From NCBI RefSeq assembly GCF_014641495.1, contig NZ_BMHV01000001.1, forward strand, positions 62,001 to 126,000: a DNA stretch of 64,000 nucleotides, written 5' to 3'. This document shows, in pieces, positions 39,680 through 40,575 of this stretch. Numbering within the stretch: position 1 is the stretch's first letter; every line of letters starts with the position of its first letter. A model generated the notes under the pieces. That model was given only the letters and a program-made list of their open reading frames with translations. It had not been told where the DNA came from and did no database searches. This DNA is from Terasakiella brassicae. GTDB taxonomy: Bacteria; Pseudomonadota; Alphaproteobacteria; Rhodospirillales; Terasakiellaceae. A program made the position numbers and the translations under genes.

Positions 39680-39859
39680 ATGACAGTTGTACATATTGAT
39701 GATTATCGCAATTATACGCCGTTTGAGCGTATTTCAGCAGATGAACTCGTCAAATGCATCGGGTACCTTCAAAAAGAAGCTGAAAAATCTGGATTTAGCG
39801 AAGTTTCCGATCTTTTGTCACTGGCAAATATGGCAACAACAGACTTGTTGCATAAGTAG
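39680..39859 (+). CDS. Small 59-aa protein of unknown function downstream of luxR
   Basis: An ATG at 39680 with a GGGGAGCGG ribosome-binding site opens 59 codons ending at TAG. The peptide starts MTVVHIDDYRNY, is acidic and soluble, and looks helical after residue 15 (ADELVKCIGYLQKEAEKSGF, then LLSLANMATTDLL). The strong ribosome-binding site and the placement 86 bases after luxR on the same strand make it probably real. I do not recognise a family. It could be a LuxR-regulated target or a small modulator. Confidence 0.6.
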   Translation: MTVVHIDDYRNYTPFERISADELVKCIGYLQKEAEKSGFSEVSDLLSLANMATTDLLHK

Positions 39860-39864
39860 AAACA

Positions 39865-39890
39865 AAGGAACGGTTTTATGACCGTTCCTT
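39865..39890. repeat. Hairpin copy 1 bracketing the palindromic element
   Basis: AAGGAACGGT at 39865-39874 pairs with ACCGTTCCTT at 39881-39890 across a six-base loop. A near-identical hairpin lies at 40059-40085. There is no long T-run, so it is a poor terminator, although it sits right after the small ORF. Confidence 0.75.
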
Positions 39891-39898
39891 ACAGATTA

Positions 39899-40049
39899 TT
39901 GACAAAGCCCCGAAACTGTCATCCCCGACCCTGATCGGGGATCCATCTTTGCTCAATGAGTAATATATAACTCATTGATTTTAAATGGATCCCGCATCAA
40001 GTGCAGGATGACGGCTTTTGGTCAATTATTTACTAAAAACACTTTGTCA
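39899..40049. mobile_element. Nested palindromic repeat element (MITE-like), no coding capacity
   Basis: The element is a set of nested inverted repeats. Outer arms are TGACAAAG at 39900-39907 and CTTTGTCA at 40042-40049. Middle arms start GTCATCC at 39918 and end GGATGAC at 40012, and both approach the centre through GGATCCAT/ATGGATCC; each also holds its own small hairpin (CCCCGA-TCGGGG on the left). Inner arms are TCAATGAGT at 39953 and ACTCATTGA at 39970. The left and right middle arms resemble the GTCATCCCCG...GGATCC repeats scattered through many alphaproteobacterial genomes. A short non-autonomous element or REP-like unit is the most likely identity. Confidence 0.65.
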
Positions 40050-40058
40050 GCAGTCTGA

Positions 40059-40085
40059 AAGGAACGATTTTTGTGACCGTTCCTT
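40059..40085. repeat. Hairpin copy 2 bracketing the palindromic element
   Basis: AAGGAACG at 40059-40066 pairs with CGTTCCTT at 40078-40085. It is a near-duplicate of the hairpin at 39865-39890 and lies just past the XRE gene's 3' end. Confidence 0.75.
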
Positions 40086-40110
40086 ATGTTCTTTAATCTT
40101 CTTCTTGTGA

Positions 40111-40575
40111 TTAACCGTTAACGGTTTCACTTTCGGCAATGGCGCGCACGACATCAATAACACGTTTGCGGATAACTGGATCCTGAAGACGTGAGAACGT
40201 GCGAACCAATTCCAAAGTCTGACGACGGTGAAGTGTCAGGTGTTCTTCAGGAATGTCGCTTTCTGCGGTTTCCCCTTGATAGCCCGGGAATGATTCGCGC
40301 ACGCTCTCAGGCATATCTTCAAAAAAGAAAGAGATCGGCACATCCAATACATTGCCAAGCTGCCAAAGCTTGCTGGCACTCACGCGGTTCGCGCCACGTT
40401 CATATTTTTGGATTTGCTGGAATGTCAGACCGATACTTTCACCCAGTTTGCCTTGTGTCATCCCCATGAGTGTGCGGCGCAACTTAACACGTTGCCCCAC
40501 ATGTACATCAACCGGATGAGGGGTATCGCTTCCGCGTGTGCCCGGCAAAATATCTTTTGTAGCAGTTTTTACCAT
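40111..40575 (-). CDS. XRE-family helix-turn-helix regulator
   Basis: This 154-aa DNA-binding protein has a Cro/C1-type HTH at about 26-82 (VGQRVKLRRTLMGMTQGKLG, then GLTFQQIQKYERGANRVSASKLWQL). The segment DVPISFFFED follows, a combination very common in alphaproteobacterial regulators near stress or cell-cycle loci. The C-terminal part (about 105-150) is helical and without a recognised domain. An AAGGA ribosome-binding site precedes the ATG. It is monocistronic on the minus strand, with the tRNA genes upstream. Its targets are unknown. Confidence 0.88.
   Translation of the reverse strand: MVKTATKDILPGTRGSDTPHPVDVHVGQRVKLRRTLMGMTQGKLGESIGLTFQQIQKYERGANRVSASKLWQLGNVLDVPISFFFEDMPESVRESFPGYQGETAESDIPEEHLTLHRRQTLELVRTFSRLQDPVIRKRVIDVVRAIAESETVNG

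Follow-up and report, generated by a model that had tools for sequence, protein, structure and literature searches.

Duplicated terminator hairpins flank a probable IS1182-family MITE in a Terasakiella genome

The palindromic sequence at 39892-40057 of the window (the whole 64,000-nucleotide stretch of DNA that was analysed) is one copy of a dispersed mobile element. We consider it very likely that this element is a non-autonomous MITE of the IS1182 family, inserted in trans into a bidirectional terminator hairpin that was copied to both sides. The data supporting this assignment are the repeat family itself, its ends, hairpin target-site duplications (TSDs) that are specific to each locus, empty sites with a single hairpin, and autonomous IS1182-family elements of like ends and behavior.

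Structure and ends of the element

The features of the locus are listed by position, strand and description.

39680-39859, plus strand: small ORF of 59 aa, 3' end towards the element (context only)
39864-39891, unstranded: left TSD copy, a complete terminator hairpin AAAGGAACGGTTTTATGACCGTTCCTTA, equal to the right copy at 26 of 29 aligned positions
39892-40057, plus strand: MITE, a non-coding mobile element CAG...CTG, with the same ends at about 20-25 places in the genome and no internal transposase gene
39892-39907, plus strand: left terminal inverted repeat CAGATTATTGACAAAG, common to the MITE copies and matching the ends of the T. pusilla IS1182-family IS (CAGATTGCTGACAAAG)
39918-39945, unstranded: inner palindrome GTCATCCCCGACCCTGATCGGGGATCCA, left half of a genus-wide repeat unit; a similar repeat occurs in congeners without IS1182-type ends
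39953-39978, plus strand: central inverted repeat TCAATGAGTAATATATAACTCATTGA, from the fold; terminator-like on the plus strand in a simple terminator scan
39986-40012, unstranded: inner palindrome TGGATCCCGCATCAAGTGCAGGATGAC, right half, pairing with 39918-39945 (inverted repeat, fold and congener comparison)
40042-40057, minus strand: right terminal inverted repeat, read as CAGACTGCTGACAAAG; its first 15 bases are the CAGACTGCTGACAAA end
40058-40086, unstranded: right TSD copy AAAGGAACGATTTTTGTGACCGTTCCTTA, from the flank alignment with the left copy
40111-40575, minus strand: gene for an XRE-type regulator that converges with the gene to the left, 3' end towards the element (context only)

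The host is a marine bacterium with a Terasakiella-like genome (3.64 Mb in 83 contigs), and a search of this genome returned 33 matches to the element, about 20-25 of them substantial. The full copies share the first bases CAG and the last bases CTG, which correspond to 39892 and 40057 in the window and give the element exact limits and a length of 166 bp. The terminal inverted repeats of 16 bp each (CAGATTATTGACAAAG and CAGACTGCTGACAAAG) are identical at 13 of 16 positions and are of the type found in the IS1182 family. The first 15 bases of CAGACTGCTGACAAAG equal the end CAGACTGCTGACAAA of IS1182-family ISs from Burkholderia, Rhizobium, Klebsiella and others. The element is short, repeated and non-coding, as is the case for MITEs, and no IS1182-family DDE transposase gene or other transposase ORF lies within 39892-40057. 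A search of the element against Rfam gave a sub-threshold miRNA as its sole match, which we take as chance.

When 39860-40090 was folded as single-stranded DNA, the energy was -50.8 kcal/mol, compared to -20.6 +/- 3.1 for dinucleotide shuffles (z = -9.8); the structure is therefore far beyond chance. The initial annotation had described three nested pairs of inverted repeats between near-identical hairpins (39865-39890 and 40059-40085), and all are located where it placed them. It had likened the inner arms to widespread alphaproteobacterial GTCATCCCCG repeats, and they do match a congener repeat that is found without the element ends. The number of copies in the genome runs counter to a single copy conserved by descent, which it had named as the contrary outcome. 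The connection to IS1182 was not made there.

Relation to IS1182-family elements

A family search in the genus showed that Terasakiella pusilla DSM 6293 has an IS of the IS1182 family in multiple copies. The protein of this IS scores 371.5 bits with NF033551 (cut-off 270) and also matches PF05598/PF13751. Wherever the left end of the IS, CAGATTGCTGACAAAGG, was read, a terminator-like hairpin directly precedes it. The T. pusilla assembly breaks inside the IS, and the left and right contig ends were matched through the hairpin. They paired in all three pairs read, where a left end and a right end share the hairpin GGATGTCCTTTTAGGTAGGACATCC, AAACGGCCCAGCATGTGCGGGCCGTTT or AGCCTGCATTTTCATGCAGGCT, which places the IS between duplicated hairpins. 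The MITE and the T. pusilla IS share the 16-bp ends only, and their interiors are unrelated. The genome of the host holds a left-end relic of an IS1182 element at C50:7209, after a terminator-like hairpin and identical to the T. pusilla end at 78 of 88 positions, and a right-end relic at C2:58928-58965. The MITE hence has its ends in common with autonomous elements of T. pusilla and of other phyla and, within its own genome, with relics only.

As the 16-bp ends match both the multicopy T. pusilla IS and the relics, the element is best read as an IS1182-mobilized MITE, and the resemblance suggests that it was probably moved by an IS1182-family transposase. The assembled genome contains no intact IS1182 transposase (the best matches in it are to IS982, at about 25 bits). 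The element is thus probably stranded, and for the same reason we infer, from its relatives, that an IS1182 transposase moved the window copy.

A side observation was made at G000:C2:58740-58990 (locus L002), where a MITE copy apparently sits in the subterminal hairpin of the IS1182 right-end relic. A further duplicated hairpin (CGCTTTTAAGATAWAAGCT) flanks the relic in turn, and the whole appears to be a nested insertion from which the rest of the IS was lost.

Mobilization by another accompanying element, namely one of the IS110, IS982 or IS3 families or a REP/RAYT-type Y1 transposase, was also considered, given that ends of IS982, IS110 and IS3 elements adjoin MITE sequence at several contig edges. 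At these junctions, the MITE is interrupted by the IS, whose own, different ends lie inside it. The junctions are therefore nested insertions, and the three families were rejected as parents of the MITE. The ends of the element (CAGRYTRYTGACAAAG) and its hairpin TSD fit IS1182-family ISs instead, and we regard a different mobilizer as improbable. REP/RAYT and IS200/IS605-type elements have Y1-type ends and no TSD, whereas this element has terminal inverted repeats and a long TSD and does not belong to them. To our knowledge, neither Y1/RAYT nor IS110 elements generate a TSD of the hairpin kind.

Duplication of the hairpin at the MITE copies

The left hairpin of the window locus (39865-39890) has a 10-bp stem, and the right one (40059-40085) has 8 perfect base pairs followed by a mismatch or indel near the loop. 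A simple terminator scan called the left hairpin (39864-39891) on the minus strand and did not call the right one. Nearly every full MITE copy is bracketed by two copies of a hairpin with an A/T tract before or after it, an arrangement typical of intrinsic terminators. The sequence of the hairpin changes from locus to locus, for example AGCCTCTTTCACGAGAGGCT at L007, AGCGCCTGTTTGACGGGCGCT at L009 and AAACGCCCTCATTTTTTAGGGCGTTT at L006.

We examined the flanks of the 20 best copies and limited the scored test to the 16 that have both ends. Palindromic flank repeats of 20-31 nt, which constitute a TSD as seen with MITEs, were present in 13 of these 16 copies and absent from three (L002, L005 and L032). 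The observed flank-repeat scores had a median of 18.75, compared to a maximum of 9.0 among 240 mismatched left/right pairs, and all 13 lay above that maximum. The duplications at L007 and L009 are perfect and directly abut the element ends. Since the hairpins vary between loci and agree within a locus, they are target-site duplications and not parts of the element.

The two hairpin copies of a locus can differ in their stems. In about 14 of 15 cases, assigned by hand, the change that breaks pairing affects the copy next to the right MITE end, and mostly the inner arm of that copy (11 of 15, a small sample). The tally took in L001, L003, L004, L006, L008, L010-L012, L014, L017 and L034 of the host genome.

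Empty sites were sought in congeners, with orthology set by gene order and about 80% nucleotide identity of the flanking gene. At the orthologue of the window locus, a single terminator hairpin lies next to the same XRE gene in five of five congeners, and the orthologue of the L014 locus likewise has a single terminator hairpin in all five. Because terminator sequences diverge fast, these empty sites are positional and not base-exact. At several other loci, L004, L007 and L012 among them, most congeners are arranged differently, without a recognizable orthologous terminator.

Hairpin duplication by autonomous relatives

Related loci from genome collections and plasmids were tested for the same ends and TSDs. 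The ends CAGACTGCTGACAAA or near variants, together with hairpin TSDs, were found in Burkholderia, Marinobacter, Lentisphaera, a Desulfuromonadales MAG, Candidimonas, Variovorax, Paludifilum and Paenibacillus; autonomous relatives thus duplicate whole hairpins in Proteobacteria, Lentisphaera and Bacillota. On plasmids, 14 of 16 copies have a perfect hairpin TSD, with examples from Rhizobium, Sphingobium, Aminobacter, Klebsiella, Providencia, Bacillus, Salinivibrio, Vibrio, ISBspe1 and Sutcliffiella. ISEfa7, among the 16 plasmid copies, has no hairpin TSD and six genome loci (L222, L226, L231, L233, L234 and L243) have no clear one, although in several of these cases an end was not locatable or lay off the contig. 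The remaining plasmid copy, an IS1182 element on the Salmonella plasmid CP053580.1 (L267), has inverted flanks: on its right side, hairpin and outer flank read as the reverse complement of those on its left, which suggests that the DNA was either rearranged across the IS or duplicated in inverted orientation.

For two insertions in IncC plasmids, joining the flanks through a single hairpin gives a sequence that other plasmids contain in full length and at 100% identity. The two cases are therefore exact before/after pairs, with one hairpin before insertion and two after. In all 31 sites measured, the TSD midpoint and the hairpin dyad are no more than half a base apart, and the TSDs are 16-30 nt long; the sites were picked without regard to symmetry, and the TSD strings were entered by hand. 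The element and its relatives thus target palindromes, as some IS1182 members do.

These sites bear on whether the hairpin was doubled only after insertion, by tandem duplication of the terminator or by recombination, and not through transposition. The differences of several bases in some left/right hairpin pairs would accord with such a history. However, the duplications are perfect and abut the ends exactly at L007, at L009 and in most autonomous copies, and the plasmid empty sites have one hairpin in flanks that are otherwise identical. We consider doubling after the event very unlikely.

We also weighed an insertion that replaces the hairpin, as with IS1272/TnSha1 of staphylococci. These elements belong to the same family, have a DDE transposase and insert into the same kind of target, hairpins or terminators, without primary-sequence specificity (PMC4923244, PMC5678879). 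Their insertions remove the hairpin wholly or partly and leave no TSD: replacement of the hairpin was observed for IS1272 (Wan et al. 2017, PMC5678879), and partial deletion on insertion was seen by Furi et al. 2016 (PMC4923244). In contrast, the hairpin of the window element is fully duplicated and the empty sites have one copy, so that the element is not of the IS1272 type; we give a replacing insertion hardly any credence. Duplication of the stem-loop was drawn by Wan et al. as a theoretical alternative (Fig. 13, pathway b, PMC5678879).

The initial annotation had offered two readings. Landing of an element in a hairpin that it duplicated is borne out by the locus-specific hairpins and by the one hairpin, in place of the two that would have spoken against it, at the orthologous site of five congeners. 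Its other reading, a composite hairpin-palindrome-hairpin unit, would fit the direct abutment of both hairpins on the element at the window locus and is refuted, almost beyond doubt, by hairpins that are unrelated between loci and match within a locus only (none of the 240 mismatched pairs scores as high as the 13 true ones).

Relation to known systems

IS1182-family ISs with the ends CAGACTGCTGACAAA (ISBspe1-like elements and the T. pusilla IS1182) are among the closest known systems; the window element differs from them in being 166 bp long, in lacking a transposase and in having a genus-wide palindromic repeat as its interior. It resembles the bacterial MITEs MITEAba12, RUP and QMITE (PMC10969869), which are short, non-coding, multicopy and intergenic, with terminal inverted repeats and a TSD, but the TSD of the window family is palindromic, measures 20-31 nt and differs according to the hairpin that was hit. 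The words IS1182 and hairpin are absent from that review, and its passages on terminators are without hairpin TSDs (PMC10969869).

Palindrome targeting by the IS1182 family is already known; in the part of PMC4923244 that cites Siguier et al. 2015, it is stated for some members. For earlier reports of hairpin TSDs or of IS1182 MITEs, the open-access literature yields the IS1272/TnSha1 papers and the theoretical pathway only. Within the open-access literature searched, the combination of a MITE and a consistent, dyad-centered duplication of the whole terminator hairpin across phyla appears to be new. ISfinder, we presume, gives variable direct repeats (0-60 bp) for IS1182, and isolated cases of hairpin TSDs may be recorded there.

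Proposed mechanism

DDE transposons normally produce a TSD of nearly fixed, short length that is set by the transpososome: strand transfer takes place at staggered points, gap repair follows, and the TSD equals the stagger. Here, the stagger varies with the target hairpin and centers on it. The simplest account is that the ends are joined at the feet of an extruded stem-loop or cruciform, where these feet are close in space. In the proposed sequence of events, a transposase supplied in trans would insert the element, composed of two 16-bp IS1182-type ends flanking the genus-wide palindromic repeat, between two convergent genes, with the bidirectional terminator hairpin there as its target. One element end would be joined at each foot of the hairpin, on opposite strands and symmetrically about the dyad. 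Gap repair would then copy the whole stem-loop and leave each side with a complete hairpin and its outer A/T tract.

The symmetry and the outcome are visible in the sequences. Recognition of an extruded cruciform or stem-loop by the transposase is what they suggest, with the qualification that sequence alone does not fully separate structure recognition from a bias towards A-T base pairs at the cut. We favor, with some reservation, the broader proposal that, in a large group of IS1182-family transposons and their MITEs, the secondary structure of the DNA determines both where the element inserts and how long the TSD is. The transposase would dock on the extruded hairpin or cruciform and make joins symmetric about the dyad; the TSD would be the whole hairpin (16-30 nt) with no fixed stagger, and a terminator hairpin would be kept on both sides.

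A variable, palindromic and dyad-centered TSD points to recognition of DNA shape, and it provides sequence evidence for a pathway until now only drawn as a possibility for IS1272. The exact before/after sites are available for testing cruciform-guided transposition. For genome annotation, the reading also accounts for palindrome-in-hairpins structures as a class.

Convergent genes

The small ORF and the XRE-type gene converge on the element, and the same setting holds for 13 of the 16 two-ended MITE copies (L003 was assigned by hand from its sequence), whereas a rough tally of ORFs in the window gives 6 of 53 neighboring pairs. After each insertion, a complete hairpin and an outer A/T tract remain on either side, and both neighboring genes therefore probably keep their terminators, so that termination would survive the insertion. 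The copies illustrate a way for a mobile element to insert between converging genes and still leave each of them a complete hairpin. A published survey counts IS1182 as one of the families that occur in excess between convergent genes (PMC9208149).

Origin of the interior

The inner arms of the MITE (39918-39945 and 39986-40012) are of the type of the alphaproteobacterial palindromic repeat GTCATCCC...GGATGAC. Congeners contain very similar double-palindrome units (L049, L063 and others); unlike the MITE, these have no IS1182-type ends and no hairpin duplication (seven loci viewed). A DNA search of 60 relatives returned the inner GTCATCCC palindromes only, and the element ends in none. By its sequence, the MITE looks like a GTCATCCC-type repeat that ended up between two IS1182-type ends.

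Other ISs are found in the same sequences. An IS982-family IS with the ends ACGTCAATTCGGGATAAGG and ACGCGGATTCGGGATAAGG sits in the subterminal part of MITE copies (G000:C19:1-351, C38:1-338 and L013). An IS110-family IS splits the GTCATCCC palindrome, either in MITE copies or in a repeat that stands alone (G000:C11:1-170, C1:257749-257881, C27:35448 and the ends of C31 and C50), and the repeat seems to be a target of this IS.
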